Positions 6,515-18,681 of a stretch of DNA of 26,346 bases are shown in pieces. A program made the position numbers and the translations under genes. Origin of the DNA: a virus; IMG/VR virus record IMGVR_UViG_3300012359_000046, positions 1 to 26,346 of that record; one strand, 5' to 3'. Each line of letters starts with the position of its first letter. Position 1 is the stretch's first letter. Under the pieces are notes generated by a model that saw only the letters and a program-made list of their open reading frames with translations, was not told the origin of the DNA and did no database searches.

Positions 6515-7225
6515 ATGACGAAGCGGCTGGCCAGTACGGCCCCGGGGGACCAGGCCACCCCCGGGGCCAACCCGCTGGAAGCCTGGTTCCGCGCGAATCA
6601 GGGCCGGGCGGTCAACAAGTGGCCCCACTACTTCCCGGTCTATGACAGGCACCTGGCCCGGTACCGCGGTGGCGATGTGACCGTGGCGGAGTTCGGCGTG
6701 TGGCATGGCGGGTCGCTGCAGATGTGGCGGGACTACTTCGGCCCCCGCTCCAGGGTGATCGGGGTCGACATCGACCCCCGCTGCACGGCGGCCGCGGGTG
6801 AGGGCATCACGGTGGTCACCGGCGACCAGGAGGACCGGGAGTTCCTCGCCGGCCTGGCCGCCCGGGCCGGGCCGTTCGACGTGGTCATCGACGACGGCGG
6901 GCACAGCATGGCGCAGCAGCTCGCCACGTTCGAGGTGATGTGGCCGGCGCTCGCCGAGGGCGGCACGTTCCTGGTCGAGGACGTGCACACCTCCTACTGG
7001 CCGGACTACGGCGGCGGGTACCGGCGGGCGGGCACGTTCACCGAGCACGCCAAGGACATGATCGACCGGATCAACGCCTGGCATTCCCGCGACCCGGAGT
7101 TCCAGCCGGACTACTGGACTAAGACGGTCGCCGGGATGCACGCCTACGACTCGGTCATCGTGTTCGACAAGGGCACGCACGGCGAGCCCGGACCGCCCGC
7201 CGTCACCGGCACGGCCTCATTCTGA
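6515..7225 (+). CDS. Sugar O-methyltransferase, MycE/TylE-like
   Basis: This 236-residue class I SAM-dependent methyltransferase has motif I in EFGVWHGGSLQMW (about residues 62-75), the acidic end of strand 2 in GVDIDPRC, a DD pair in VVIDDGGHS (metal and sugar binding in relatives) and EDVHTSYWP. This combination is what I recall for the mycinamicin/macrocin sugar O-methyltransferases (MycE, TylE), which methylate a deoxysugar hydroxyl in a metal-dependent way. The start ATG is only 15 bases after the capsid stop, in the same frame, and has no clear ribosome binding site, so translation may depend on coupling to the capsid gene. The next gene is a methyltransferase-glycosyltransferase fusion, so a glycan substrate is likely. 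The exact sugar is not known. Confidence 0.8.
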   Translation: MTKRLASTAPGDQATPGANPLEAWFRANQGRAVNKWPHYFPVYDRHLARYRGGDVTVAEFGVWHGGSLQMWRDYFGPRSRVIGVDIDPRCTAAAGEGITVVTGDQEDREFLAGLAARAGPFDVVIDDGGHSMAQQLATFEVMWPALAEGGTFLVEDVHTSYWPDYGGGYRRAGTFTEHAKDMIDRINAWHSRDPEFQPDYWTKTVAGMHAYDSVIVFDKGTHGEPGPPAVTGTASF

Positions 7226-7234
7226 AGGAGAGCA

Positions 7235-8836
7235 TTGGCTCCGATCACCATCACGGTCCCCGACGACATCCCGTCCGCGATCACCGGGGAGGAAGCGGCC
7301 CGCCTCGCGTCGCTCGCCTCCGGCGGGGACGTGCTGGAGCTCGGCGCCTGGTACGGGTTCTCCACGGTGGTCCTGGCCCAGGCCGCCCGCAAGGTGACAT
7401 CCGTGGACTGGCATCAGGGCGACGGGTCCCTGACCGCGATGGGCCGGGCGGACGGCGACACGTGGGCGCAGTACCAGTCGAACCTGGCCCGGTACGGCGT
7501 TGCCGCCAGGGTCGATGCGCGCCGCGGCCGGTTCGAGGTCGTGCTGCCCGCGCTGAAGGCCCAGGGCGCCCTGTTCGACGGGGTGTTCCTCGACGCGCAG
7601 CATGACGCGGCGGCGGTGCAGGCCGACCTGGACCTGGTGCTGCCGCTGATCCGGCCGGGCGGGTGGGTCGCGTTCCACGACTACGGCCGCGGCCCGGAAA
7701 CGGGCCACCACGGGTTCGGGGTGACCGAGGTCGCCGACCGGTTCGGCGTGGCCGGCGTCGCCGGGCACCTGGCCTGGGGCACCGTCCCCGGCGCGTCCCC
7801 GGCGCGCGATGCGGCGGCGGACCGGGTACTGACGGTCGTCGGGCTGCCGTTCGCGCCGGACGGCTCCGGGTACTACCGGTTCTACCTGCCGTTCAAGCAC
7901 CTGTCCGCGAACAGCCGGCACGTGTTCGGGATCCCCGCGCCCGGCAGCCGGGTCCCGCCGCCGTCCCCCGCCGAGTTGGAAGACGTCGACGTGCTGGTGA
8001 TGCAGCGGCCCGCCCTGGTGCACGGGATGCGGCAGTTCGACCGGATCGCCGGCGCCGTCGCCCGCGTGTACGAGACCGACGATGACATCACCGTGATGGA
8101 GCCGAGCAACGCGGGGCACTTCGCGTGCGACCCGCGGGCCGCGGAATCGGTGCGGTATTGCCTGCGCCGCGCCGAGATGGTCACCGTGTCCACGCCGTAC
8201 CTGGCGGAACTGTACGCCCCGTTCAACAGCAACATCCGGATCCTGCCGAACTTCGTGAAGGCTGAGCTGCTCGACATGCCCCGCAAGCGGCGGGACCGGG
8301 TGACGATCGGCTACCAGGGCGGCACGTCGCACCTGGTCGACCTGTGCATGGCGCAGCCCGTGCTGCGGCAGGTCCTGGACGCCAACCCGGACGTTGACTT
8401 CCACTGGATCGGGGCGGATTTCTCGCCGCTGCTGTACGGCTACTGGCCGCTGCGCCGCGGGAACGCCAGGTTCACCCCGTGGTTCGATGACGTGGGCGAC
8501 TACTACCGGGCCGTGGACTTCGACATCGCCATCGCCCCGCTGGCCGACGTGCCGTTCAACCGGGCCAAGTCTCACCTGAAGGCCCTGGAGTCCGCGGCCC
8601 GGGGCATCCCCATCGTGGCCACCGACATGGAGCCGTACCGGGACTTCGTCAAGGACGGGGTGACCGGGTACCTGGTCCGCACCGAGGAGGAGTGGGCCAA
8701 GCGGCTCACCGACCTGATCCACGACGAGGCGGCCCGCGACGAGCTGGGCCGCAACGCCCGCGAGCTGGCGAAGGCCCACACCATGCAAGGGAACTGGCGG
8801 ATGTATCAGGACGCGTACGAGGAGGCGGCCCGATGA
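7235..8836 (+). CDS. Bifunctional methyltransferase-glycosyltransferase fusion
   Basis: The TTG start at 7235 is supported by GAAGGAGAG just before it. Residues 1 to about 210 form a Methyltransf_24-like domain: DVLELGAWYGFS (33-43), SVDWH (56-60), GVFLDAQHD, and a PGGWVAFHDYG strand. Residues about 215-533 form a GT-B glycosyltransferase resembling GT4: an N-terminal half with VLVMQRPA and YETDDD, then ILPNFV, IGYQGGTSH, and the donor-binding helix around Lys445-Glu452 (KSHLKALESAARGIPIV), with DGVTGYLV after it. One chain could thus transfer and methylate a sugar. It follows another sugar methyltransferase by 9 bases and overlaps the next small gene by 4. The fusion is read from one uninterrupted frame. 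Acceptor and donor are not identifiable. Confidence 0.85.
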   Translation: MAPITITVPDDIPSAITGEEAARLASLASGGDVLELGAWYGFSTVVLAQAARKVTSVDWHQGDGSLTAMGRADGDTWAQYQSNLARYGVAARVDARRGRFEVVLPALKAQGALFDGVFLDAQHDAAAVQADLDLVLPLIRPGGWVAFHDYGRGPETGHHGFGVTEVADRFGVAGVAGHLAWGTVPGASPARDAAADRVLTVVGLPFAPDGSGYYRFYLPFKHLSANSRHVFGIPAPGSRVPPPSPAELEDVDVLVMQRPALVHGMRQFDRIAGAVARVYETDDDITVMEPSNAGHFACDPRAAESVRYCLRRAEMVTVSTPYLAELYAPFNSNIRILPNFVKAELLDMPRKRRDRVTIGYQGGTSHLVDLCMAQPVLRQVLDANPDVDFHWIGADFSPLLYGYWPLRRGNARFTPWFDDVGDYYRAVDFDIAIAPLADVPFNRAKSHLKALESAARGIPIVATDMEPYRDFVKDGVTGYLVRTEEEWAKRLTDLIHDEAARDELGRNARELAKAHTMQGNWRMYQDAYEEAAR

Positions 8837-9036
8837 GCAGGCAGATCGTGCTGGAGGTCACCCAGCCGTTCCACAGGACCGGCACCGAGGTCCAGTACCA
8901 GCCGGGCGAGCAGTTCCCGCGCGGGACGGACCTGCCCGACGGGATATCCGTCAAGGAGGTCATCGCCGAGGTGCCGGACCCGCCGGCGAAGCCCGCGGCG
9001 AAGGCGCCGGAGGGCAAGGGCGCGGCCCAGAAGTGA
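8833..9036 (+). CDS. Small hypothetical protein
   Basis: This 67-residue protein starts at an ATG overlapping the glycosyltransferase stop (ATGA) and ends by overlapping the next start (GTGA), so it sits in a tightly coupled string. The first 40 residues look like a small beta fold (IVLEVTQPFHR, VQYQPGEQFP); the rest is a Pro/Ala/Lys-rich tail. I do not recognise the family. Similar short basic-tailed proteins occur downstream of actinophage capsid genes without known function. Confidence 0.6.
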   Translation: MSRQIVLEVTQPFHRTGTEVQYQPGEQFPRGTDLPDGISVKEVIAEVPDPPAKPAAKAPEGKGAAQK

Positions 9037-9305
9037 CTGACCTGTCCGCCCGGCCGCCGGTGAAGCCCGCTGGGCCGCTGGGCCTGTGCAACTCGTGCTG
9101 CGCGGCCCGCAAGGCCGACCCTGAGCAGCCGCTGCGCGAGGCGGTGACGCTGGTGCCCGCCCAGGTGCCGATCGCGGGCCCCGGCGGCCAGGTCATCGGG
9201 ATCGGGGTGGTGGCGCTGCCGCAGTGCTGGGAGCACATCCCCGGGCCCGCCCCCGGGCAGGGGTCCGGGCTGCTGATCGCCAACGGCAACGTGCCGCGCA
9301 CGTAA
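9033..9305 (+). CDS. Small Cys-containing hypothetical protein
   Basis: This 90-residue protein has a GTG start inside the previous stop. It contains a CNSCCA cluster near residue 20 and a lone Cys in LPQCWEH, an arrangement that could bind a metal ion, though four well-spaced ligands are not clear. The middle has beta-like strands (VTLVPAQVPIA, GIGVVALPQ). It is followed after 10 bases by a gene with its own ribosome binding site. Function unknown. Confidence 0.55.
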   Translation: MTDLSARPPVKPAGPLGLCNSCCAARKADPEQPLREAVTLVPAQVPIAGPGGQVIGIGVVALPQCWEHIPGPAPGQGSGLLIANGNVPRT

Positions 9306-9315
9306 GGAGACCAGG

Positions 9316-9510
9316 ATGCACCTGATGGGCGTGGCGCGGATCGTGCTGCCGCCGTGGGAACCGGACCAGGGCTGGCGGGTGCTGGACCCGGACGGGCACG
9401 TGGTGGACGCGGGCCCGCAGTCGGTCGCGCACGCGACCCTGGACCTGCTCGAAGCGAGCGGGGCGCTCGCGGGCATACCGCTGCTCGGCACCGGCAGGAA
9501 CGGCAGATGA
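9316..9510 (+). CDS. Small protein with a PDG..V.AGPQ motif, copy 1
   Basis: This 64-residue protein has ATG 9316 after AAGGAG (9304-9309). Its core, GWRVLDPDGHVVDAGPQSV, is repeated in the next, overlapping gene, so the two look like tandem paralogues. The pattern suggests a small beta hairpin domain. The last residues are Gly/Leu-rich. I do not recognise a family. It is coupled to copy 2 through an ATGA overlap. Confidence 0.55.
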   Translation: MHLMGVARIVLPPWEPDQGWRVLDPDGHVVDAGPQSVAHATLDLLEASGALAGIPLLGTGRNGR

Positions 9511-9626
9511 GCGAGCCGCCGGACGGCCCGGCCGGGTGGACCGTGACCGGCCCGGACGGCGAGGTCGTGGCGGCCGGCCCGCAGACCGTGACGGAAGCAT
9601 CCGCAGGCGCAAGCGAGGAGACATAG
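9507..9626 (+). CDS. Small protein with a PDG..V.AGPQ motif, copy 2
   Basis: This 39-residue protein begins at ATG 9507 overlapping the stop of copy 1. It keeps GW.V..PDG.VV.AGPQ.V from copy 1 but then ends in a short acidic Ala/Ser tail. Its stop is immediately followed by the ATG of the next gene. A probable ribosome binding site for that next gene (GAGGAG, 9615-9620) lies inside its 3' end. Function unknown; it could be a shrinking duplicate. Confidence 0.5.
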   Translation: MSEPPDGPAGWTVTGPDGEVVAAGPQTVTEASAGASEET

Positions 9627-10073
9627 ATGGCTAACGCGATCGACCAGACCCTCGTGTCCCTCATCCTCAACGCGCTGACGCCGACCGGGGCGGCGGGCAT
9701 CCCGGGGACGGCGCTCGGCACCCCGCTGGGCACCACCGCGATGAAACTCCGGCTGAACTCCACCGCGAGCTCGGCGTCGGCGGCGGGCACCGAGATCGTG
9801 AACGGCACCGGGTACGCGGCGGGCGGGTTCACCTCGCTGGGCGCGTCCACGACGTCATCGGCGGGATCAGCGGTCGGCGTGCCGCTTACCACCCAGTCGG
9901 CGACCGCCACCGCCGCGTGGTCGATCGTGTCGTTCGACCTGACCGGCAACTCGGGGACGCGGGGATGGTTCGGGAACTTCAACGGCCAGCCCATCGCCGT
10001 CGCCATCGGGAACACCTTCCAGATAACGGGTGGAAGCGGCGCGGCGGCCGGCATCCAGATCTCCCTGACGTGA
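9627..10073 (+). CDS. Phage structural protein, probably surface or decoration type
   Basis: This 148-residue protein has ATG 9627 after GAGGAG. It starts with a short helix (DQTLVSLILNAL) followed by Thr/Ser/Gly-rich beta strands. Segments such as MKLRLNSTASS, GTGYAAGGF and a late AWSIVSFDL resemble a family of phage beta-sandwich proteins seen among decoration and fibre-like genes. It has no Cys and no membrane segment. It lies between the sugar-modification genes and two other beta-rich proteins, which fits a protein displayed on the capsid. The specific role is inferred. Confidence 0.55.
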   Translation: MANAIDQTLVSLILNALTPTGAAGIPGTALGTPLGTTAMKLRLNSTASSASAAGTEIVNGTGYAAGGFTSLGASTTSSAGSAVGVPLTTQSATATAAWSIVSFDLTGNSGTRGWFGNFNGQPIAVAIGNTFQITGGSGAAAGIQISLT

Positions 10074-10084
10074 GGCACTGAATC

Positions 10085-10666
10085 ATGCCGTCAACCTTGT
10101 GGTCGGCCCCCTCCGACGCGGGCAACTCCGCCCCGTTCGTCCAGTCCACGATCACCGCCGCGGTCCTGGACATCTCGCCGGGAACGGTCCTCATCCCGGC
10201 CGGGTCGCTGGACGCGGGCACCCGGCTGCGGATCATCGCGTGGGGCAGCTACATCGCCACGACCACCGCCAGCACGATGGCGTTCGGGTTCTACATGAAC
10301 AACCCGGGCACCACGATCCTGACGACCCCGGCGGTCCTGACCCTGGGCCCGGCGATCACCGCGGTCGCGTCGACGATGCCGTGGATGCTGGAGTACTGGG
10401 GCATCATCGCCGCCGAGTCCACCACGACCGGCACCGCCGGGTCGATCGTGGGACGGGGCCGGTTCTCATCCCCCGCCACCAGCTGGACCACGGCCCCGTC
10501 GGAGTCCATCGCGCCGCAGACGGTGGGCGCGCAGACCGTGGCGCAGACAGCGACCGGGATGATCACCTACAACGAGCAGAACATCTTCGCCGGGTGCACG
10601 GTCACCACCGCCACCGGCCTGACCTCGATCACCTGCAACGAGCTGACCTGCGAGCTGATCGGGTAA
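10085..10666 (+). CDS. Beta-rich phage structural protein
   Basis: This 193-residue protein has ATG 10085, with a weak TGAGG 8 bases upstream. It is rich in Thr, Ala, Ile and Ser with alternating beta-strand patterns (RLRIIAWGSYIATTTAST, AFGFYMNN). The end carries two Cys residues in CTVTTATG and ITCNELTCEL. It looks like a jelly-roll or similar sandwich seen in phage surface proteins. No enzyme motif is present. The neighbours on both sides are of the same type, so a decoration or spike role is the most economical guess. Confidence 0.5.
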   Translation: MPSTLWSAPSDAGNSAPFVQSTITAAVLDISPGTVLIPAGSLDAGTRLRIIAWGSYIATTTASTMAFGFYMNNPGTTILTTPAVLTLGPAITAVASTMPWMLEYWGIIAAESTTTGTAGSIVGRGRFSSPATSWTTAPSESIAPQTVGAQTVAQTATGMITYNEQNIFAGCTVTTATGLTSITCNELTCELIG

Positions 10667-10694
10667 TGCCGGCCGCCTGACCCCGGAGGGCGGC

Positions 10695-12518
10695 ATGAGC
10701 TTCACCGTCACGGCCACGCAGGGCGGCGGTACCAACGCCGGGATGTGCCTGGCGGTCATCGTCCTGACGAACGCCGCCGAGGCGGGCGGCGCGAGCCTCG
10801 GCACCCAGCAGACCGGGGCCGCGCACGGCACCCTGACCCCCAACTTCTCCGGGTCGCTGATCTACTGGGCGATCTCGGACTTCACGCTCAACACCGCGTG
10901 GACGCTGGACGCCAGCAACTCCACGTCGGCGACCGGGCTCGGCGACTTCTCCGACGCCAGCCAGGGCGTCGAGTGCACGGCCGGCACCTGGACCGGGACG
11001 GTCACCTCCGGCACCGGCGTCCTGATCGGCGCGTCGGCCCCGGCAGGGAACGCCACGTCGATCGCCGGGTACGAGATCAAGGGGATCTCGGGCAGCCCGC
11101 TCGTGGATGCGTCCACCCCGGCGTTCACGGGCATCCACGCGACAGCAGCCACCAGCCCCGCGTTCACCCCGCCCGCCGGCGCGGTCCTGGTAGCGCTGAC
11201 CGCCTCCGCGACCATCTCCGGCGACCAGACGATCGCGATCACCGACACGTCCGGCCTCGGCCTGACCTGGACGCGGCGGGCGATCAGCGCCGCCACGGGC
11301 AACCAGGCCAACGACCTGTGCACGGTCTACACCGCGACGATCCCCGCCGCGGTCGTGCCGGCGCAGGCGGTTCCGGCGATCGCGCCCGGGTGGTTCCCCG
11401 GCGCCCCGGGGCCGCCGGGCGGCATCCCGTTCTACGTGCCGCCGGAGGCCAGCCCGCCCGGCGAGGCGGTCACCGTCGACTCGACGGGTTCGTCCCCGGC
11501 CGGGGCGGGTGCCGTCACCGCCGTCGCCACGCAGGACGCCGGCACGTCCACGTCCGCGGCCGGCGCCGGCACGTCCACGGCTGCCGCCACCCAGATCGCG
11601 GGCGCCAGCGCGGCCGGCGCGGGGTCGGTCACGGCGAAAGCCGTCCAGGCCGCCGTCGCGTCTGCTGCGGGTGCCGGGGCTGTCACTGACATCGCCACCC
11701 AGATCGCCACGGCCACGGCGGCCGGTACCGGGTCGGTCACTGCCGCCGGGTCGGTGTCGGGGCCGCTGACCGCCTCGGTGTCCGGTGCCGGGTCTGCTAC
11801 CGCGGTCGTCACCCAGATCGCGCCCGCCGCCGCGGCTGGCGCCAGCGCTGTCACGACAGCCGCCACCCAGGCGGCGAAGGCGACCACCGCGGGTGCCGGG
11901 TCGGCCGGGCCGGCACCGGTAACGCAGGCTGCCGTAGCGGCGGCAGCGGGTGCCGGGTCGGTCGCTGACGTAGCCACCCAGGTTGTCATCGCGTCTGCCG
12001 CGGGCGCGGGTTCGGTCACCGCGGCGGGCAGCGTCATCGGCGGTGCCTCCACCGGATCTGCCACCGCTGCGGGCGCGGCTGCTGCGGTGGCCACCCAGAT
12101 CGCCCCCGGGACCGCGGCCGGGACCGGGGCCAGCACCGCCGCGGCTACCCAGGCCGCGAAAGCGACCACCGCCGCCGCGGTGTCGGTCACTGCAGCAGGG
12201 CAGATCACCGGCACCGCCAGCATCGCCGGGGCGGGCACCGCAACCGCCAGGGCCGCCCAGGCCCCGGCCGCCGCGGCGGCCGGGGCGGGGGTCCTGTCCG
12301 CGCTGGCCGCCCAGCGGGCCATCGCCGCGATCACGGGCGCCGGGTCGGTCACCGCCGCCGGGGGCGTCCAGGTCGCGTTCACTATCGGCGCCCTCACTGC
12401 CGCAGACGCCCCCGGTGCCATCCTTACCGCGGCGGGCGCCAGCAGCGCCCTGACCGCGGGCACGGCGGCATCCGGGACGCTCACAGCCACCGACCAGCGG
12501 ACAGGAGGACCGGGTTGA
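10695..12518 (+). CDS. Repetitive fibre-like surface protein with 18-residue repeats
   Basis: This 607-residue protein has ATG 10695 after GGAGGG. Residues 1 to about 220 hold two beta-rich subdomains of a type common in actinophage structural genes (TLTPNFSGSLIYWAI; FTPPAGAVLVALTA; SGLGLTWTRR). A Pro/Gly hinge follows (about 225-255), with a short PGAPGPPGG stretch. Residues 267-562 are sixteen repeats of about 18 residues with the consensus AAGAGSVTAxATQxAxA, then a related tail. The repeats contain almost only Ala, Gly, Thr, Ser, Val and Gln, and have no Cys or aromatic residue apart from the last unit. This suggests an extended fibre. The density of Thr and Ser makes it a candidate glycan acceptor for the nearby glycosyltransferases. 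It overlaps the connector start by 4 bases. Confidence 0.7.
   Translation: MSFTVTATQGGGTNAGMCLAVIVLTNAAEAGGASLGTQQTGAAHGTLTPNFSGSLIYWAISDFTLNTAWTLDASNSTSATGLGDFSDASQGVECTAGTWTGTVTSGTGVLIGASAPAGNATSIAGYEIKGISGSPLVDASTPAFTGIHATAATSPAFTPPAGAVLVALTASATISGDQTIAITDTSGLGLTWTRRAISAATGNQANDLCTVYTATIPAAVVPAQAVPAIAPGWFPGAPGPPGGIPFYVPPEASPPGEAVTVDSTGSSPAGAGAVTAVATQDAGTSTSAAGAGTSTAAATQIAGASAAGAGSVTAKAVQAAVASAAGAGAVTDIATQIATATAAGTGSVTAAGSVSGPLTASVSGAGSATAVVTQIAPAAAAGASAVTTAATQAAKATTAGAGSAGPAPVTQAAVAAAAGAGSVADVATQVVIASAAGAGSVTAAGSVIGGASTGSATAAGAAAAVATQIAPGTAAGTGASTAAATQAAKATTAAAVSVTAAGQITGTASIAGAGTATARAAQAPAAAAAGAGVLSALAAQRAIAAITGAGSVTAAGGVQVAFTIGALTAADAPGAILTAAGASSALTAGTAASGTLTATDQRTGGPG
11493..12380 (+). 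repeat. Sixteen in-frame repeats of about 54 bp
   Basis: Units start at residues 267, 287, 305, 323, 341, 361, 379, 397, 416, 434, 452, 473, 491, 509, 527 and 545 of the fibre protein. Twelve are exactly 18 residues; the others are 19-21. The protein pattern is kept better than the DNA, so these are old repeats under protein-level selection and not a recent tandem slip. Confidence 0.75.
11661..12218 (+). repeat. Higher-order duplication, two blocks of 279 bp
   Basis: Residues 323-415 (11661-11939) and 416-508 (11940-12218) are both 93 residues and show the same order of unit variants: an ATQ-type unit, a GSVTAAGSV unit, a TQIAP unit, an ATQAAKATT unit and a divergent unit. This points to duplication of a five-unit block. 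Confidence 0.6.
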
Positions 12519-13405
12519 GCCGCTACCCGCTCGGGCAGCCCGTGCGCCAGTCCACCACCGTCCGGCAGCTCAATGTGGACGGCACCACGAGCCTGGTCAA
12601 CGCCACCACGCTCACCCTGGTCGTGAAGCTGGCGCAGGCTGACGGCACGCAGACGGTCACGGGCACCTACGCCAGCCCCGTCAATGACGGTACCGGCCTC
12701 TACCATCAGGACGTCCCGGCCGCCGACCTCGCTGCGGTAGGCCACTACCAGTACGCGTGGACCAGTACCGGCACCGGCGCGGGCGTCTCCTTCGGCGACT
12801 TCGACGTGTTCGACCCCTTCGAGACCGCCGTCCTGCCGCTGCAGGACGCCAAGGACGCGCTCAACATCCCGCAGGCCAGCACCGGCAGCGATACAGAGAT
12901 ACAAAGCTACATCGCCACCATCGAGAGCAACCTGGAGCGGGCCACCGGCGGGCCCATCGTCAACAGGACGGTCACCGAGCGGTCCGAGATCATGGGCTGG
13001 ACCGTCATCCCCGTCCGGCAGAGACCCCTGGTCAGCGTCGTATCCATCGCGTCAGCGTCCGGCGGGACGATCAGCACCGCCGACCTCGACCTCGACGTCA
13101 ACGCCGGGCTCATCCGCCGCAAGCTCGGCCTGCCGTTCTACGGGCCGCTCTGGGGGCTGCCCGTCTGCTACCCCACCTACGTCGCCGGGTGGGGCGTGAG
13201 CGTTCCGGCCGCGTTCAACAGCTTCGCCCGGGTCGTGCTGGCCCACCTGTGGGAATCCCAGCGGGCCGGCACCGCCGCCCTCCCCATGGGCGGCGGGGAG
13301 ATGACACTCATCCCGGGATTCGGGTTCATGGTCCCGAATGTGGCCGCCGAGATGCTCAACGGGTCAATGAACGGCATCCCGTTCCTGGCCGAAGCTTTTA
13401 TCTAG
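12515..13405 (+). CDS. Head-tail connector, gp6-like, with N-terminal beta domain
   Basis: This 296-residue protein has a TTG start at 12515 inside the fibre stop, with AGGAGG 6 bases upstream. Residues 1 to about 105 form an Ig-like beta domain (LVVKLAQADGTQTV, GLYHQDVPAADLAAVGHYQYAWT, FDVFDP). From about 110 on it is a gp6/gp15-type connector: LQDAKDALNIP, SDTEIQSYIATIESNLERATGGPI, a central RPLVSVVSI, YVAGWG, and the helical end VLAHLWESQ. Connectors bind below the portal and begin the neck. The fused beta domain at the front is less usual and could be exposed on the neck. The 3' end overlaps the minus-strand HNH gene by 8 bases. Confidence 0.8.
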   Translation: MSRYPLGQPVRQSTTVRQLNVDGTTSLVNATTLTLVVKLAQADGTQTVTGTYASPVNDGTGLYHQDVPAADLAAVGHYQYAWTSTGTGAGVSFGDFDVFDPFETAVLPLQDAKDALNIPQASTGSDTEIQSYIATIESNLERATGGPIVNRTVTERSEIMGWTVIPVRQRPLVSVVSIASASGGTISTADLDLDVNAGLIRRKLGLPFYGPLWGLPVCYPTYVAGWGVSVPAAFNSFARVVLAHLWESQRAGTAALPMGGGEMTLIPGFGFMVPNVAAEMLNGSMNGIPFLAEAFI

Positions 13406-13973
13406 CAGATTCCTGCCTGAGCAACTGAGCCTGCCGCGAGCAGACACGACCGCAGAAACGCTGCCGGGAATCTCCGGGCTTGTACGGCTGGCCGCAATGT
13501 TCGCACAGGCGCTCGGAGAGCGACCGTCTACCACGGGCGGCCTTTACCCGGCTGCAGATACGGCAGTACCTGACCTTGTACTTCCCGTGATAGGTATATC
13601 CGCTGTTCTCGGGCGTGTACTCATGGTCCTGCGGGCAGTGCGTGATAGCCGCGTGCTGGCGGCGGATGTTCTCCTGCTGGGTGACGGGTTCCAGGTGGGC
13701 CGGATTCACGCATGATGCGACGCGGCACAGGTGGTCTAGCTGCAGCCCCTCGGGGATCGGCCCGACGAACAGGATGTAGGCGACGCGGTGGGCGGCAAGC
13801 GGCCGTCCCTCGTAGTACATCCACGGGTAGCGGCCATCCCGGCAGTAGCCCAGCCACAGCCAGCAGGGGCCGAGTTCAGGGCGATGCTCCGGCACCGGGC
13901 CGTTCTTGTTGACCTTTGGCCAGAAACGCTCGGCTGGCGGACGGGACGGCCTATATCGATACTGTTTAGACAT
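13398..13973 (-). CDS. HNH homing-type endonuclease
   Basis: This 191-residue protein is encoded against the operon direction. The HNH_3-type core is clear: AHRVAYILFVGPIPEG (61-76), LDHLCRVASCVNPAHLEPVT (79-98) with the catalytic Asp80-His81, Asn90 and His93. Two Cys-rich patches follow: Cys113 to Cys140 (C..DH...C..C) and Cys157-Cys160 with Cys174-Cys178, probable zinc sites. Such free-standing HNH genes act as selfish elements in phages. The ATG lies 28 bases from the start of the tail terminator on the other strand, so their 5' regions face each other. It was probably inserted between connector and terminator. Confidence 0.88.
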   Translation of the reverse strand: MSKQYRYRPSRPPAERFWPKVNKNGPVPEHRPELGPCWLWLGYCRDGRYPWMYYEGRPLAAHRVAYILFVGPIPEGLQLDHLCRVASCVNPAHLEPVTQQENIRRQHAAITHCPQDHEYTPENSGYTYHGKYKVRYCRICSRVKAARGRRSLSERLCEHCGQPYKPGDSRQRFCGRVCSRQAQLLRQESAR

Positions 13974-14001
13974 AGGTACATGCTACCGGGAGGGCGTACA
14001 T

Positions 14002-14472
14002 ATGAGCACCACCCGGTTCACCGATGCCGTGGCCGCGCTGCTCGCCGCCTACCAGGCCGCGCCCGCCCTGGCCGGGGTGCCCGTCTACGACGGGCCGCAG
14101 CCGTCCGCCGCGTACGACGCCGACTTCATCATCGTCGGCCACGACGGCACCCTCACCGCCGACGGCACCCTGCAGGCCACCGCCCCGGCCGGGACCTACG
14201 CCCAGGCCTGGGCCGACAGCACCAGCGGGCAGGAGGAAACCGGGTCGGTGAACTGCCTGGCCGTCTCCCAGACCGGCGACACGGCGGACCTGGCCGGACG
14301 CCGCGCCCGCGTCAAGGTGCTGCTCGCCGCCGCCGAGGACGCTGCCGCCGCCGCGGTCGTGCCGCACCTGACGTTCGACGGGACTTCTGACGGCAGGTTC
14401 ATCACCCGGGGCGTGGCCGGGGTCGCCGTCATGTGCGCCTACCGGGTCACCTACTCCGCCCCGTGGGGCTGA
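14002..14472 (+). CDS. Tail terminator-like protein (gpU type)
   Basis: This 156-residue protein starts at ATG 14002 after GGGAGG (13989-13994); the longer frame from 13906 crosses the HNH 5' region and is not used. The pattern fits tail terminators: an N-terminal helix TDAVAALLAAYQAAPAL, GVPVYDGP, a DFIIVGHDG strand, an EETGSVNCLAV strand and a long Ala-rich helix ARVKVLLAAAED. These proteins cap the tail tube and join it to the head. Its place between connector and tail tube fits, though an HNH gene and small genes separate them. Confidence 0.65.
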   Translation: MSTTRFTDAVAALLAAYQAAPALAGVPVYDGPQPSAAYDADFIIVGHDGTLTADGTLQATAPAGTYAQAWADSTSGQEETGSVNCLAVSQTGDTADLAGRRARVKVLLAAAEDAAAAAVVPHLTFDGTSDGRFITRGVAGVAVMCAYRVTYSAPWG

Positions 14473-14527
14473 GGCCCGCGCCCCCGGGCCATCCTGCGGC
14501 AGTGGCCTGCGACACGTTCACCGGCAC

Positions 14528-14710
14528 CTAGGAGGGCTCGCGCCCCTCGGCCCGCCGCAGCTTCTCAGCCCGGATAGCGGCAGCCCTGGTAGCCGGGTCA
14601 TCCATCGCGCGCTTGAACGCCTGCCAGGACCTCTCCAGGTCGGCGCGTCGGCACGGGGCGTAGATGCTGCACCGGTCATGATTCCTGTGCCGCAGCCGGG
14701 GAAGGCGCAC
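14528..14710 (-). CDS. Small basic hypothetical protein
   Basis: This is a 60-residue minus-strand frame starting from a GTG that overlaps the stop of the gene before it (TAGTG, 14712-14708). An ATG further upstream at 14758 would overlap that gene by 49 bases and seems less likely. It is Arg-rich with Cys14 and Cys20 and a predicted helix ERSWQAFKRAMDDPATRAAAIRAEKLRRA. I do not recognise it. Confidence 0.45.
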   Translation of the reverse strand: MRLPRLRHRNHDRCSIYAPCRRADLERSWQAFKRAMDDPATRAAAIRAEKLRRAEGREPS

Positions 14711-14982
14711 TAATCGCCCAGCTCGGCCGTGATCCGGTCGATCTGCGCCTGCAGCCATGCCCGGCTGACCTCGTCCGCGTCGGTGCCCTCGACGACGTTG
14801 ACCACGTGATCGGTGATCTCGCCGGTATCCAGGTCATCGACCGCGTGGTGATGCCTGAGCGCGTTGACCAGCGTGCCGGCGAGGTTGTACCGCTTGGTCC
14901 TGGTGACCAGGGCCGCCATGTAGAGCAGCCGCCGGGTCTCGTCGAAGTCGGTCTTGTCGCCGTCGCCGATTGTCTTAGCCAT
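14710..14982 (-). CDS. Small helical hypothetical protein
   Basis: This 90-residue minus-strand protein has an ATG at 14982, 48 bases from the methyltransferase start on the other strand. It looks genuinely coding: balanced charges, a helical pattern (DETRRLLYMAALVTRTKRYNL, ending ADEVSRAWLQAQIDRITAEL) and a His-rich turn ALRHHHAVDDLD. No ribosome binding site stands out. It begins a two-gene minus-strand unit. Function unknown; neither nuclease nor DNA-binding motif is visible. Confidence 0.55.
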   Translation of the reverse strand: MAKTIGDGDKTDFDETRRLLYMAALVTRTKRYNLAGTLVNALRHHHAVDDLDTGEITDHVVNVVEGTDADEVSRAWLQAQIDRITAELGD

Positions 14983-15030
14983 CTGGACCGTCCCGTATCA
15001 GGTAGATGGATTGCCTAGGTCAGGAGAATA

Positions 15031-15630
15031 ATGCACCCGTCGGCGTACGCGTGGGCCAGCACGGCGCTGACCGCGGCCGAGGTGAAAGGCGCCCACGTCA
15101 TCGAGGCGGGCGCCTGCGACGTCAACGGCTCCGTCCGGCCCGCCGTCGAGGCGCTCGGCCCCGCGTCCTACACCGGCACCGACATGCAGGCCGGACCCGG
15201 CGTCGACGTCGTGTGGGACGCCGCCGACCTGTCCGGGCTCCCCGGCAGCGGCTATGGCGGGAAGGGTGGCGGGTTCGGCGCGTTCGGGATCGTCATCAGC
15301 ACCGAGATGCTCGAGCACGCGGAAGACTGGCAGGCGGCGATGACGGGGATGATCCGCGCGCTGACCCCCGGCGGGCTCCTCGTCCTGACCACCCGCTCCG
15401 AGGGATTCCCCTACCACGGCTACCCGGGGGACCACTGGCGGTTCAGCGTTGAGGCGATGGGCGAGATCATGGCCGCCGCCGCGATGGACGTCCTGGACCT
15501 GCGTGCCGACCACGACCCGGCGTCGCCCGGGGTGTTCGTCAAGGCCCGCAAGCCGGAGGGCTGGACGCAGCCACGCGGCATGCGGAAGGCGTGGGCGGCC
15601 ATCGCCGGAGTCACGGCGATGACCGGGTGA
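15031..15630 (+). CDS. SAM-dependent methyltransferase (Methyltransf_11 type)
   Basis: This 199-residue protein has ATG 15031 after AGGAGA (15022-15027). Motif I is VIEAGACDVNGSVRP (23-37), followed by YTGTDMQAGPGVDVV (strand 2 acid Asp51), IVISTEMLEHAEDW (motif IV and the usual EMLEH) and LTPGGLLVLTTRS. The fold is typical for small-molecule and sugar methyltransferases, and I recall similar DVNGSVR proteins beside glycosyltransferases. It lies between two minus-strand islands and upstream of the CgeB-like glycosyltransferase, so I infer a role in the same glycan pathway. Modification of DNA is unlikely because no NPPY or PC motif is present. Confidence 0.8.
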   Translation: MHPSAYAWASTALTAAEVKGAHVIEAGACDVNGSVRPAVEALGPASYTGTDMQAGPGVDVVWDAADLSGLPGSGYGGKGGGFGAFGIVISTEMLEHAEDWQAAMTGMIRALTPGGLLVLTTRSEGFPYHGYPGDHWRFSVEAMGEIMAAAAMDVLDLRADHDPASPGVFVKARKPEGWTQPRGMRKAWAAIAGVTAMTG

Positions 15631-15702
15631 GGGTGTCCTACGGAGCCCCGGCACGCGGAAGGCCAGTACGCGCAGACCAGCCAGCCGTGACCAGCCCCCT
15701 AT

Positions 15703-15776
15703 CCAGTGTGCACACCGGAACCGGGAGCTAACCCGGGGATCTTTCAGGGCCTCTCCCGATTTTCAGTCGGGTGGCC
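15703..15776. terminator. Cluster of three hairpins between convergent genes
   Basis: In the 165-base gap between the plus-strand methyltransferase stop and a minus-strand stop, three stem-loops follow one another: 15703-15718 (CCAGTGTG/CACACCGG), 15721-15736 (CCGGG, 6-base loop, CCCGG) and 15755-15771 (CCCGA, 7-base loop, TCGGG), the last flanked by GGCC on each side (15748-15751, 15773-15776). None has a clear U run. A bidirectional terminator is the simplest reading; a degraded tRNA-like element is an alternative. Confidence 0.45.
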
Positions 15777-15795
15777 ACGCCCGCAACACAGGAGT

Positions 15796-16077
15796 CTAAG
15801 CCCGGCGGACCCAGACCCGGACCCGGTTGTCCCCGAGCGGCTCGGCGTGGTCGATAGGGAACGCCCACTGCCGGTCCCCGCTGGTGATCCTGAGCGTCTC
15901 GCCCTCCCGGTACTGACCGGGCGGGTTCGGCTGATCAAAGGTGTCGATCACGACGGGCATCAGGTCAGGGACCGGGCCGGGCAGCGCGGCGACATCGACG
16001 TCGGGGCTGTAGGTGCCGGTGAACGTGCCGCTGGCCTCCGGCAGCCCGGCCACGTAATCCCGGGATCCGCTCGTCAT
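15796..16077 (-). CDS. Small protein with a tail-tube-like signature
   Basis: This is a 93-residue minus-strand protein starting at ATG 16077, which overlaps the stop of the gene before it (ATGA). Its start, RDYVAGLPEASGTFTG, closely matches the DANKVYVGGLPDASGDFSG segment of the tail tube protein at 17561-17989. The second half (GQYREGETLRITSGDRQWAF, then NRVRVWVRR) reads as beta strands. It may be a small tube-fold relative or a fragment of a tail protein reused on the other strand. No ribosome binding site is obvious, so coupling to the previous gene is likely. Function is not known. Confidence 0.55.
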   Translation of the reverse strand: MTSGSRDYVAGLPEASGTFTGTYSPDVDVAALPGPVPDLMPVVIDTFDQPNPPGQYREGETLRITSGDRQWAFPIDHAEPLGDNRVRVWVRRA

Positions 16078-16232
16078 CCATGGGGATAACCCCCGATTTC
16101 TCCCGGGCCCGGCTGCCACGGTTCGCCGGGGTCGCCGCCCGCATCCGGCAGGCCGTCCAGGAAGGCATGCGCCATCGCCTGGGACAACCCGTCCCGCTGC
16201 TCCTGGCTCAGCTCCGGAAGTTTTTCCGCCAT
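16074..16232 (-). CDS. Small hypothetical protein coupled to the tail-tube-like gene
   Basis: This is a 52-residue frame on the minus strand with ATG at 16232 and a TGA that overlaps the next ATG (ATGA). It opens with a charged helix (MAEKLPELSQEQRDGLSQAM), then becomes Gly/Pro-rich. The overlap with a convincing downstream gene is the main support. No strong ribosome binding site is visible. I do not recognise it. Confidence 0.45.
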   Translation of the reverse strand: MAEKLPELSQEQRDGLSQAMAHAFLDGLPDAGGDPGEPWQPGPGEIGGYPHG

Positions 16233-16245
16233 GACTGGGAGTGTA

Positions 16246-16284
16246 ATGCGCTGGCTGCTGATCCACCCCCGGTCGCAGGGCTAG
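16246..16284 (+). pseudogene. Remnant of a glycosyltransferase 5' end
   Basis: GGGAG (16237-16241), a 4-base spacer and ATG 16246 open a frame that encodes MRWLLIHP and then stops after 12 codons (TAG 16282-16284). The same RWLLIHP opens the glycosyltransferase at 16493. The two 20-base copies (16249-16268 and 16496-16515) differ at two bases, both synonymous. I infer the remains of a duplicated gene start. Confidence 0.5.
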
Positions 16285-16293
16285 GGCAGTGCA

Positions 16294-16494
16294 TCACCAC
16301 AAGGCCACGTGCTGCTGATAATGCCGGACCATACCTGAACTGCGCCAGATGTCATCGCGATCCTCGCGACCGTAATCCCGCAGCTCAGCGCCCTCGACGA
16401 TCTCATCGCAGTACCGGGTCACAGGCAGATCCTGCGGCATCTCCTGAAGCGCGCTGATCAGTTCACCGACGGTCATATCTGGGAGGTTAGCCAT
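16294..16494 (-). CDS. Small protein of the MTVGELI.AL type
   Basis: This 66-residue minus-strand protein has ATG 16494; the long upstream extension of this frame is antisense to the glycosyltransferase and is discarded. The sequence DMTVGELISALQEMPQDLPV followed by an acidic middle (EIVEGAELRDYG) matches a type of short phage protein I have seen in many genomes, usually annotated as hypothetical. Its start codon overlaps the proposed ATT start of the plus-strand glycosyltransferase by two bases, so the two genes run divergently from one point. Function unknown. Confidence 0.55.
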   Translation of the reverse strand: MANLPDMTVGELISALQEMPQDLPVTRYCDEIVEGAELRDYGREDRDDIWRSSGMVRHYQQHVALW

Positions 16495-16495
16495 T
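16481..16495 (+). promoter_or_regulatory. Ribosome binding site and probable ATT start
   Basis: GGGAGG (16481-16486), a 6-base spacer and ATT (16493-16495) precede the RWLLIHPGPSWSVADV sequence. The alternative GTG at 16532 has no ribosome binding site and would remove the conserved first strand. The upstream duplicate has ATG at the same place. Confidence 0.6.
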
Positions 16496-17548
16496 CGCTG
16501 GCTGCTCATCCATCCAGGACCTTCGTGGTCCGTGGCTGACGTTTTCAACGGCTGGTCCGAGGCCCTCACCGGACTCGGCGAGCAGGTCGAGGAATACCCG
16601 CTCGACGCGGCGCTGCGGTTCTTCAACAACGCGCTCGCCGAAACCGGGGAGGTCCGGCCGTGCGGCTGCCGTGAGGTGCGGAAGTACCTGGACCGCGACC
16701 AGGCCGCCCGGCTCGCCGTCGACCCGATCCTCGCCGCCGCGCACCGGTTCGGGCCCGACGTGATCCTGTGCACCTCCGCGTTCTTCATGCAGCCGTGGCT
16801 CCTGGAGATCCTCCGCGCCCGGCGCCACAAGATCGTCTTGCTGACGACGGAAAGTCCTTACCAGGACGACTACCAGCTGAAAGTCGCGGAGTACGCGGAC
16901 CTGACCCTGCTTAACGACCCGGTCAACATCGGCCTGTACCGGGACATCGGCCCCGCCGAGTACATGCCGCAGGCGTACCGGGAGTCGGTCCACTACCCGC
17001 CGCCGCCCGGCACCGTCCCGGAATACGACCTCGCGTTCGTCGGCACCGGGTTCCCGTCCCGCGTCAGGTTCTTCTCGGCGATGGACCTGGCCGGGCTGAA
17101 CGTCCGCCTGTCCGGCCTGTGGATGGACTTGGCGGAGGACTCGCCGCTGCGGGAGTGGACCGCCACTGAAGCCGACGACTGCGTCGGCAACCACGAGGTC
17201 GCCGCTATCTACCGGCGCAGCAGGACCGGCATCAACGTCTACCGGACCGAATCCGAGGCCGGGCACGCGGGCGAGGGATGGGCCTGCGGGCCCCGCGAGA
17301 TCGAGATGGCCGCGTCCGGACTGTGGTTCGCCCGCGACCCCCGCCCGGAATCGGACGAGCTGTTCCCGATGCTCCCGTCGTTCACCAGCCCGGAAGAAGC
17401 CGGGGACCTCATCCGCTGGGCCCTCGCCCACCCGGAAGAACGCGAGCAGGCGGCGCTGAAGGCCCGCGCCGCGATCGCGGACCGCACGTTCACCGAGCAC
17501 GCCAAGCAGCTGCTCCGGCTGCTCAGCCGGCAGCCCGTCACGATGTAG
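16493..17548 (+). CDS. Glycosyltransferase, CgeB-like GT-B family
   Basis: This is 351 residues if translation starts at ATT 16493 (338 from GTG 16532). The N-terminal RWLLIHPGPSWSVADVFNGW is the first strand and helix of the GT-B fold, as in phage glycosyltransferases that begin with HPGP.FSVADV. Further blocks are LLTTESPYQDD, LLNDPVNI, a central DLAFVGTGFPSRVRFF, GINVYR, and the donor-site CGPREIEMAASGLWFARD of the Glyco_trans_1_2 type. The C-terminal helix is FTEHAKQLLRLL. It would transfer a sugar from a nucleotide donor, and the tail tube gene follows after 12 bases. Its place next to a methyltransferase and the tail gene suggests virion glycosylation. Donor and acceptor are unknown. 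Confidence 0.82.
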   Translation: MRWLLIHPGPSWSVADVFNGWSEALTGLGEQVEEYPLDAALRFFNNALAETGEVRPCGCREVRKYLDRDQAARLAVDPILAAAHRFGPDVILCTSAFFMQPWLLEILRARRHKIVLLTTESPYQDDYQLKVAEYADLTLLNDPVNIGLYRDIGPAEYMPQAYRESVHYPPPPGTVPEYDLAFVGTGFPSRVRFFSAMDLAGLNVRLSGLWMDLAEDSPLREWTATEADDCVGNHEVAAIYRRSRTGINVYRTESEAGHAGEGWACGPREIEMAASGLWFARDPRPESDELFPMLPSFTSPEEAGDLIRWALAHPEEREQAALKARAAIADRTFTEHAKQLLRLLSRQPVTM

Positions 17549-17560
17549 GGAGAAACGCCA

Positions 17561-17989
17561 ATGCCATCCAGCAGGCGCCACGGCCGGAACGCGCAAATCT
17601 ACCTCGGCCTGACCACCGGCGCCGCCGCGGTGCCGCTGCCATTCCAGGCGGCCTGGTCAATCAACAAGGCCAGCGACAGAGATGAGGTCACGGCCTTCGG
17701 GGACGCCAACAAGGTGTACGTCGGCGGGCTCCCGGACGCCTCCGGGGACTTCTCCGGGTTCCTCGACGCGGGCACCTCCCAGACCTACGTCGCCGCCTCA
17801 GACGGACTGCCGCGCAACATGTATCTCTACTGGGATGCCGTCAACGATCCTTCGTCCTACTTCTACGGAACTGTGTTGTGCGATTTCAGCGCTGATGGCG
17901 CGGTCTCCGGCCCCGTGAACTTCAAGGCGACCTGGGCAGCAGCCGGTCCCGTCGTCCGCTACACGCAGTGGGGCGGCATCGGCACCTGA
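17561..17989 (+). CDS. Major tail (tube) protein
   Basis: This 142-residue protein has ATG 17561 after GGGAGA (17549-17554). It shows the tail tube pattern: a basic N-terminus, then AAWSINKASDRDEVTAFGD, YVGGLPDASGDFSGFLD (inner sheet and loop), NMYLYWD, GTVLCDFSADGAVSGPVNFKATW and a short end. These subunits stack as rings around the tape measure. The last 31 bases are shared with the 3' end of a minus-strand HNH gene. The short length is near the lower limit for siphovirus tube proteins. Confidence 0.8.
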   Translation: MPSSRRHGRNAQIYLGLTTGAAAVPLPFQAAWSINKASDRDEVTAFGDANKVYVGGLPDASGDFSGFLDAGTSQTYVAASDGLPRNMYLYWDAVNDPSSYFYGTVLCDFSADGAVSGPVNFKATWAAAGPVVRYTQWGGIGT

Positions 17990-18681
17990 GCCAGTTCCCG
18001 GTCCAGTTCAGCCGCTACGGCCGGGCTGTGCGCAGCTCCATGCGCCACCCGGGCCGGATCCCAGTGGATCAGCAGCTTGCCGCCCTTGCTCTGGTTGCAG
18101 GGCCGGCATGCGGGCGCGAGGTTGTACCTGGCCTCGTGGCCGCCGAGCGCGAGCGGCCGGATGTGGTCGACGTGCGTCGGAATGGCACCGCAGTAGATGC
18201 ACGGCCCTGATGCGAGCACTTCGATATAAACCGACCGTGGCACCGGACCCGCTACTTCGGCAGCTAGCTTCCGGGCGCGGCGGGCGTTGCCGTGCGTCCG
18301 CGCCCGGCCTGAGCAGGAGTCGCATTCCAGGGTCAGCCTGCGGTGAGTCTTTCCGCAGGCGGTGCACGCCCGGTCCGATTTCCGGCATTCCTGGCACTGG
18401 CTATTGGAGGCGCGGAACACGTGCTCGCAGGTGATGCAGGGATGCTCCGGGTACCGGCACGCTGAGCACTTGCGGTAGAGCCCGCGGAAGGTCGCGCCGC
18501 AGATCACGCATTCGCGGTCTGTCAGGCGGCAAGTCGGGCATAGGTATTGGGTGCCGCGATACACGCGGTCGCATGCGGTGCACTTCCGTCTCCCGATGGG
18601 GCGGCAACCGGGGCACTTACGGTACCGGCCAGTAAAGACAGTGCCGCATTGGACGCACACGCGGTCTGTACCCTGGGTCAT
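17959..18681 (-). CDS. HNH endonuclease with five tandem zinc ribbons
   Basis: This 240-residue minus-strand protein has ATG 18681 (the longer frame upstream is antisense to another gene). Five CxxC...CxxC ribbons repeat with a period of 24-25 residues: Cys9/12/23/26, 34/37/48/51, 58/61/72/75, 82/85/96/99 and 106/109/120/123. A basic linker follows (126-140). The HNH core is CIYCG (161-165), THVDHIRPLALGGH (169-182), YNLAPACRPCNQSKGGK (186-202), with Asp172-His173 and Cys161/164/192/195 as the structural zinc site. The ribbons probably read a DNA target. It overlaps the tail tube gene by 31 bases. It looks like an inserted homing endonuclease. Confidence 0.85.
   Translation of the reverse strand: MTQGTDRVCVQCGTVFTGRYRKCPGCRPIGRRKCTACDRVYRGTQYLCPTCRLTDRECVICGATFRGLYRKCSACRYPEHPCITCEHVFRASNSQCQECRKSDRACTACGKTHRRLTLECDSCSGRARTHGNARRARKLAAEVAGPVPRSVYIEVLASGPCIYCGAIPTHVDHIRPLALGGHEARYNLAPACRPCNQSKGGKLLIHWDPARVAHGAAHSPAVAAELDRELAQVPMPPHCV

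Follow-up and report, generated by a model that had tools for sequence, protein, structure and literature searches.

Introduction

Phage virion glycosylation is known from a handful of mycobacteriophages, and it is often open which enzyme modifies which protein. Glycosylated virions have been described for Che8, Corndog and Myrna in work credited to Freeman et al. 2023, with phage-encoded glycosyltransferases (GTs) and with capsid and tail tube both reported as glycosylated (PMC12363180, PMC11652166, PMC13313380, in their available parts). For Che8, the available text of PMC12363180 reports glycosylated proteins and credits gp110 for the capsid, gp108 being unmentioned there. In our own comparison, Che8 gp108 is a fusion of a GT with a Methyltransf_24/TylF domain, and GT genes 108-110 are grouped towards the right end of the record, with small genes and an HNH gene as neighbours. 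In Corndog (Cluster O), compared here by description only, gp35-gp38 comprise an O-methyltransferase and three GT-type genes in the virion operon, forming a single block between portal and protease, and its authors propose that the capsid is modified with methyl groups and glycans; the part of that description available mentions no tail-tube-linked enzyme (PMC4351075). The GT gp5 of Streptomyces phage Zuko also adjoins virion genes, lying before the terminase and next to a gene annotated as UDP-glucose dehydrogenase.

Here, we examined a 26,346-nucleotide stretch of IMG/VR record IMGVR_UViG_3300012359_000046 (the window), from a soil-bacterium virus that appears to bring along enzymes that add sugars to its particle and methylate them. 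The window carries phage-encoded GTs with methyltransferases among its virion genes, a feature of phage virion glycosylation systems. The general kind of system is already known, since Che8, reported to be glycosylated, has its own GT-methyltransferase fusion. Strict pairing of a GT with a tail tube protein looks like a new variant; we found no report of a tail-tube-linked GT in open-licence papers, and Freeman 2023 could describe one.

Results

The first-pass annotation had placed three methyltransferase and two GT domains among capsid, connector and tail genes, and this observation holds. Each domain lies in an intact coding frame by Pfam match and codon-position GC (third-position GC 0.92-0.96 against 0.47-0.56 at second positions for P0001 to P0004; Table 1), and portal (PF04860), capsid, head-tail adaptor, major tail and tape-measure (phrog_305) neighbours are all recognised. 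Two corrections apply: the stretch from 6515 to 17548 also contains several minus-strand frames, and P0004 starts with ATT at 16493, where relatives aligned from residue 1 have ATG, GTG or TTG. In pairwise comparisons with close relatives, dN/dS is 0.27-0.36 for P0004 (five relatives), 0.36-0.47 for the P0002 fusion (four) and 0.22-0.40 for P0003 (three), so these three genes are not decaying. Reading by eye the frames of a contig that contains the last 60 bases of the window and continues 6.58 kb downstream, we recognised no further GT.

Table 1. Features of the window discussed in the text, with the match or property by which each was assigned
Feature	Position	Strand	Basis
Major capsid protein, HK97 type	5045..6499	+	PF05065, E 2.7e-28 (scanned as ORF 5009-6499)
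P0001, MycE/TylE-like SAM/metal-dependent O-methyltransferase, catalytic domain only	6515..7225	+	Methyltransf_24 PF13578, E 2.6e-10
P0002, fusion of methyltransferase (~1-205) and GT4-like glycosyltransferase (~206-533)	7235..8836	+	Methyltransf_24 PF13578, 1.4e-20; Glyco_trans_1_4 PF13692, 1.7e-12
Three Ser/Thr-rich proteins, capsid-to-adaptor interval	9627-10073, 10085-10666, 10695-12518	+	23-28% S+T
Head-tail adaptor	12515..13405	+	phrog_442, 8.2e-16
HNH endonuclease	13398-13973	-	second HNH gene just past its end
P0003, class I SAM methyltransferase	15031..15630	+	Methyltransf_23 PF13489, 4.5e-7; phrog_32762, 1.6e-16
P0004, GT-B glycosyltransferase	16493..17548	+	Glyco_trans_1_2 PF13524, 2.4e-13
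Major tail tube protein, proposed P0004 acceptor	17561..17989	+	phrog_10528 major tail protein, 2.1e-7

P0001, situated between the capsid gene and P0002, bears out the proposed resemblance of one methyltransferase to the macrolide-sugar enzymes MycE and TylE. In phmmer searches of the PDB its residues 38-229 matched 3ssm (1.3e-35) and residues 26-229 matched the demethylmacrocin O-methyltransferase 8ia9 (1.1e-28); the entry 3SSN, identical in sequence to 3ssm, is named as MycE in the available part of PMC10117803. Taking MycE numbering as PDB chain index minus 20, D127, H130 and D156 of P0001 align with MycE Asp275, His278 and Asp304, residues whose active-site roles are described in the accessible portion of PMC9275233. 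P0001 thus shares with these natural-product sugar O-methyltransferases the catalytic domain and its Asp/His/Asp residues, but differs from them in two respects: it is 236 aa long, covers no more than chain residues 200-401 of 419 and lacks the N-terminal auxiliary domain, and it has no counterpart of the active-site Tyr208, whose position (same numbering) falls in a 7-residue MycE stretch missing from P0001. A viral parallel is Mimivirus R132, also MycE-like and proposed to methylate virion sugars, but from an unrelated virus whose fibril glycans come with sugar-nucleotide pathways (PMC10117803, available part).

The window itself contains neither an epimerase (PF01370) nor a nucleotidyltransferase (PF00483) by profile search. 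Among relatives, PF00483 was found in 0/22 virus records and in both bacterial genomes, and PF01370 in 12/22 virus records, among which those of L018 and L021 look to be near-copies; NDP-sugar epimerases are additions in some relatives, one of which also has a C-methyltransferase-like gene. A sugar-nucleotide supply of the virus's own was considered and rejected on the absence of PF00483 from window and virus records and of PF01370 from the window. Since both families are missing from the window and the methyltransferases are optional partners (see below), the word "pathway" used in the first-pass annotation is too strong. The methylated glycan that it proposed is nonetheless plausible, given the MycE-type residues of P0001, the methyltransferase-GT fusions here and in Che8, and the epimerases of relatives.

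P0002 also lies downstream of the capsid gene. It matched phrog_7162 (glycosyltransferase, 3.2e-45), and profile searches recovered O-methyltransferases (7cvu, 5n5d) and GTs (3mbo, 2jjm, 3c4q); its structure model is poor (pLDDT 55). In L016-L022 the two halves are separate genes. Zuko gp5 is the top phage tblastn match to the GT half (34% identity over 57% of the query), leaving the methyltransferase half uncovered. The fusion in Che8 gp108 is arranged unlike that of P0002, and direct homology with Che8, as judged from gp108, was rejected after hhalign gave no match to A1 or A3.

To place the enzymes among relatives, we used home-made HMMs iterated on the fetched loci, with an E-value cutoff of 1e-4. 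Duplicates were recognised by identical keys of 200-250 bp rather than by contig name, so that close strains may remain. Loci lacking an adaptor and with less than 5 kb of sequence past the capsid gene were dropped from the capsid-slot counts, and methyltransferases were counted by any of three models, because the P0001 model also catches the methyltransferase half of the fusion. A GT between capsid and adaptor is present in 41/46 capsid-seeded loci, its family varying (20 of the 41 are P0002-type), and five loci have no recognised capsid-side GT; a capsid-side methyltransferase occurs in 23/46. Over all 58 fetched loci, a set that includes loci found with P0002 or P0004, GTs occupy the slot in 53, methyltransferases in 33 and epimerase-like genes in 10. 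Of these GT calls, 25/53 and 21/41 depend on a single family, phrog_34859 (two members scanned), for which Pfam support is weak or none. Within 6 kb upstream of the tube, each of the three methyltransferase models matched in 1/29 loci, and by gene order P0003 sits in the head block in some relatives and directly before P0004 in others.

P0004 directly precedes the tail tube gene. Its AlphaFold model (pLDDT 88) has a GT-B fold over the full length and matches BshA, PimA and MshA, the top match being BshA 3mbo (Z 24.9 over 316 residues, rmsd 3.4). At the sequence level it has no match in the PDB; Glyco_trans_1_2 of Pfam is its only named-family match, and none of 16 family members matched a PHROG. 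The model also matches the DNA-acting T4 alpha-glucosyltransferase (1y8z, Z 23.6), for which reason we retain as a low rival the reading that the GTs, and the methyltransferases with them, act on phage DNA to give hypermodified bases. P0002 moreover matches phrog_2675, labelled DNA methyltransferase (1.7e-10), although that PHROG is also hit by a protein that has a glycosyltransferase as its best PHROG. Against this stand the kinship of P0001 with sugar O-methyltransferases and the lack of the thymidylate synthase/hydroxymethylase family PF00303, found in none of 24 records (two bacterial records and 22 possibly fragmentary virus records of relatives), the window's own genome being incomplete. 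We regard DNA modification as very improbable.

The P0004 family is large and tied to one kind of tail tube. At least 579 stretches were confirmed in our scan, whereas tblastn with two family queries against 50,697 phage records found nothing. A cultured strain, Klenkia brasiliensis DSM 44526, carries the P0004-family gene and tail tube as a pair in a provirus whose locus (L167) also has a methyltransferase, and is itself the only carrier among 394 genomes from its class. Tube-seeded searches (the best 80 of more each) gave 132 distinct tail-tube-family genes among the matches listed, 127 of which have a P0004-family gene upstream in the same record: 125 within the fetched locus and two further upstream on the same strand. 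In those 125 loci, again among the matches listed, the distance to the tube is at most 120 bp in 106, 120-1000 bp in 14 and more in five. Of the remaining five tube genes, two begin at the very edge of their contig, and the other three, which directly follow the capsid gene, are paralogues; for two of these paralogues (L171, L190) the record was searched and holds no P0004-family match. Setting these five aside, all 127 testable tube genes among the matches listed have the partner.

Any core operon gene would be constantly present, as the adaptor family illustrates, which occurs upstream of the tube in 28/29 loci with at least 6 kb; the weight therefore falls on tube-type swaps and co-divergence. 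In 14 records the same slot holds an alternative tail tube, either of the PF25595 type or of a second type (~360 aa) that is recognised solely by its position; none of the 14 has the P0004 family. Among capsid-seeded loci, it is present in 6/6 with this tube against 0/13 with an alternative tube (Fisher p 3.7e-5, tube hits of 60 bits or less left out). P0004 and tube also co-diverge more strongly than either does with two other neighbours tested: their distances co-vary most (r 0.76, partial 0.59, n 54, among loci with all four genes and without short P0004 or tube hits), compared with partial correlations of 0.20 for the tube and 0.36 for P0004 with the gene after the tube. Swapped-tube loci may differ in further genes.

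Two rival explanations bear on this pairing. Remodelling of host glycans or receptors, blocking superinfection, is a common role of phage GTs. The enzymes here could remodel host cell-wall glycans in this way, and the GT families matched are classed as moron/host takeover in PHROGs, but strict pairing ties the P0004 family to a single virion protein, and the genes sit among virion genes, which makes this reading unlikely. P0004 and tube might instead be one recombination cassette, the enzyme acting on another virion protein (tape measure, fibre or a small tail protein). Genes here do swap in blocks, and P0004 co-varies also with the gene after the tube, as given above. P0004, however, is gone with the other tube type even though all 14 loci retain the gene before the slot, 10 retain the adaptor and five the gene after the tube, and the pair survives HNH genes between its members (L182, L207, L237); we consider a cassette of this kind a rather weak candidate. 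DNA modification, for its part, would not predict a tie between the P0004 family and a tail-tube type.

Discussion

The split into two blocks seen in the first-pass annotation is real and more meaningful than it had been taken to be, with one GT on the capsid side and the other strictly paired with one tail-tube family. We think it somewhat probable that the window encodes a two-module system of virion glycosylation, in which P0004 serves the tail tube, P0002 the head, and P0001 and P0003 supply additional O-methyl groups. In such a system, P0004, encoded with the tube, would move a sugar from a nucleotide-sugar donor onto the tail tube protein, while the GT4 half of P0002 would build a glycan on the capsid or another head protein and its other half would methylate a sugar hydroxyl. 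P0001 and P0003 would put on further O-methyl groups as optional tailoring, and donor sugars would probably come from the host pool. On the head side, we infer the major capsid protein to be neighbour and putative acceptor; the three Ser/Thr-rich proteins are possible extra acceptors, judged from composition. The benefit may be protection of the particle, including shielding, or a changed surface chemistry.

A stronger and distinctly tentative version is that P0004 and this tail-tube family are bound to each other as enzyme and substrate in an obligate pair, the tube being unable to assemble or work without its private sugar. If so, glycosylation would be a structural requirement rather than an optional shield across a large set of actinophage-like contigs, a group to which no isolated phage in the collection searched belongs.

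Gene order, together with the tail-tube swaps that occur naturally, leads to the prediction that each virion part in this large group has one enzyme of its own, and the cultured carrier Klenkia brasiliensis DSM 44526 makes that prediction testable. If true, a tail-tube family would have its dedicated glycosyltransferase.

Layout of the virion operon

The window, 26,346 bases long and 71% GC, comprises one IMG/VR virus record classed as linear. Its plus strand runs from the terminase end through the portal, a protease-like protein that also has a peptidoglycan-binding region, the major capsid protein, P0001 and P0002 to small genes, three Ser/Thr-rich proteins, the head-tail adaptor, a small gene, P0003 and P0004, and then to the tail tube, small genes, the tape measure and tail genes. 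The four proteins that the first-pass annotation had assigned to a glycan-building and methylating pathway (P0001 to P0004) hold up as genes, with open ORFs, coding-type GC3 and the domains stated for them. The two HNH endonuclease genes within this plus-strand operon (PF13392; PF01844 with Cys-pair repeats) have counterparts at comparable sites in some relatives, and in L006 and L011 a gap of about 280-330 bp separates the same two terminase parts between which the window changes reading frame.

Features of the window
Feature	Position	Strand	Observation
Terminase	about 757-772		terminase match changes reading frame
Head protein	3120-5057		protease-like; N-terminal region resembles endolysin PHROGs, later region phrog_80 head maturation protease
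P0001	6515-7225	+	MycE-like methyltransferase
P0002	7235-8836	+	methyltransferase-glycosyltransferase fusion
Repeat	7032-7054 and 17484-17506		exact, 23 bp, common to P0001 and P0004; encodes TFTEHAK in both
Adaptor	12515-13405	+	head-tail adaptor
HNH gene	13398-13973	-
P0003	15031-15630	+	small class I methyltransferase
93-aa ORF	15796-16077	-	tail-tube-like stretch DYVAGLPEASGTF
P0004 start	16247-16269 and 16493-16515		present twice, imperfectly, 246 bp apart
P0004	16493-17548	+	glycosyltransferase; start codon of the intact gene is ATT
Tail tube	17561-17989	+	major tail tube protein
HNH gene	17959-18681	-

The tail module

Pairing of P0004 with the tail tube was counted in tube-seeded loci only, which avoids counting what the search itself had put in. 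Among the matches listed, these held 132 distinct tube-family genes, and for 125 of them the locus included a P0004-family gene upstream, 106 times at no more than 120 bp, 14 times at 120-1000 bp and 5 times farther off. Of the others, two start at a contig end and three, in L171, L189 and L190, are tube-like paralogues that immediately follow the capsid gene, perhaps the tube fold reused in the head; the remaining two, in L188 and L236, have the P0004 family on the same strand of the same record but about 3.5 kb and 11 kb upstream. An initial count took in every fetched locus, those retrieved with P0004 too, and placed the family within 120 bp of 125 of 159 distinct tube hits and within 3 kb of 22 more, the other 12 being contig ends, paralogues, L188 and L236. 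Conversely, a tube lies downstream of 149 of 154 distinct P0004-family hits, and the remaining five have less than 600 bp left.

The adaptor is present in 28 of the 29 loci with 6 kb upstream; therefore, constant presence by itself is to be expected of any core operon gene. Across 54 loci, P0004 and tube protein distances gave the highest correlation (r 0.76; partial 0.59, bootstrap 0.50-0.70), compared with partial correlations of 0.20 for the tube and 0.36 for P0004 with the tube's other neighbour, and r 0.34 for P0004 with the adaptor. Further, some relatives carry an alternative tube in the same slot, either PF25595 (Phage_TTP_16; L261 member scanned) or a roughly 360-aa protein identified only from its position. 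In 14 such loci, searched together with the rest of each record, the P0004 family was found in none, while the gene preceding the slot was kept in 14, the adaptor in 10 and the gene following the tube in 5. Seven of the nine loci without this follower have less than 430 bp after the tube hit; in L005 (1.1 kb left) and L300 (3.8 kb left) no follower was recognised. Among capsid-seeded loci only, the P0004 family accompanied the window's tube family in 6 of 6 and an alternative tube in 0 of 13 (Fisher p 3.7e-5). The capsid gene of L005 is in two parts, and the gap separating them holds a group I intron (538-913; RF00028, 85 bits), the only above-threshold match among eight sources searched; gaps also occur in the capsid, tube or P0004 genes of other sources.

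P0004 had no PDB match by sequence, and its family had no PHROG match (16 members scanned). Its AlphaFold model (pLDDT 88) is a complete GT-B fold; the predicted structure comes closest to BshA, sucrose-phosphate synthase, PimA and MshA, and T4 alpha-glucosyltransferase ranks just behind them. Pairwise dN/dS was 0.27-0.36 for P0004, 0.05-0.13 for the tail tube, 0.22-0.40 for P0003 and 0.36-0.47 for P0002. The minus-strand 93-aa ORF aligned to the tail-tube alignment by hhalign (probability 82%, E 1.1e-5), and similar minus-strand genes occur in L011, L012 and L037.

The head module

P0002 fuses a Methyltransf_24 domain to a GT4-like glycosyltransferase. It follows P0001 after the capsid gene here; close relatives retrieved with P0002 mostly have it directly 3' of that gene, and in L016-L022 it is split into two genes. 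In 41 of 46 capsid-protein-seeded loci a glycosyltransferase gene of some kind lies between the capsid and adaptor genes: 20 loci have the P0002 type, and 21 have only a different, GT-A-like family that PHROGs labels glycosyltransferase and Pfam matches weakly or not at all. In the other 5 loci none was recognised there.

In agreement with the proposed MycE/TylE-type resemblance, P0001 matches the MycE catalytic domain (3ssm, E 1.3e-35) and demethylmacrocin O-methyltransferase (8ia9, 1.1e-28). It retains residues aligned with MycE Asp275, His278 and Asp304, but lacks the N-terminal domain and the stretch containing Tyr208 (residue roles from PMC9275233). A methyltransferase occupies the capsid slot in 23 of the 46 loci, and P0003 lies in either module among relatives. 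The methylated coat suggested at first pass is plausible, although its methyl part is optional across relatives and a protective role is hypothetical. Of 22 virus records of relatives, 12 carry PF01370 epimerase/dehydratase genes, which adjoin a methyltransferase in L073 and L276; L018 further encodes a GT17, a C-methyltransferase-like and a radical SAM/B12 protein; neither PF01370 nor PF00483 was found in the window.

Known systems, distribution and hosts

Glycosylated proteins are reported for mycobacteriophages Che8, Corndog and Myrna in PMC12363180 and PMC11652166, the former naming Che8 gp110 and Corndog gp38 as essential for capsid glycosylation. Che8 gp108, an annotated glycosyltransferase, is a fusion of GT-A and Methyltransf_24/TylF domains that parallels P0002, although with reversed domain order and a different glycosyltransferase type. 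PMC4351075 places an O-methyltransferase and three GT-type genes within the Corndog virion operon and suggests methyl and glycan modification of its capsid. From these precedents, phage virion glycosylation with methyltransferases is of a known kind; for the MycE-like Mimivirus R132, methylation of a virion sugar has been proposed (PMC10117803). The apparent novelty lies in how strictly a single glycosyltransferase family accompanies a single tail-tube family, apart from the head module.

By tblastn, 50,697 phage records gave matches to P0001 in 12, P0003 in 8 and P0002 in 142 (none covering 80% of its length), and no match to P0004, the tail tube or the Klenkia relative of P0004. The P0004 alignment matched at least 599 IMG/VR stretches, of which 579 were confirmed and the best 80 viewed. 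Among bacterial genomes it matched five contigs, from a Micromonosporaceae MAG, two Acidimicrobiia MAGs, an Actinomycetota MAG and cultured Klenkia brasiliensis DSM 44526. Over 6,351 bases the Klenkia locus matches IMG/VR record L210 exactly and is therefore taken as a provirus. From these matches, the hosts are probably Actinomycetota.

Taken together, we favour, with moderate confidence, a two-module virion glycosylation system as the best explanation. The predicted acceptor that follows from the P0004-tube pairing, together with the existence of a cultured carrier, makes the finding worth pursuing.
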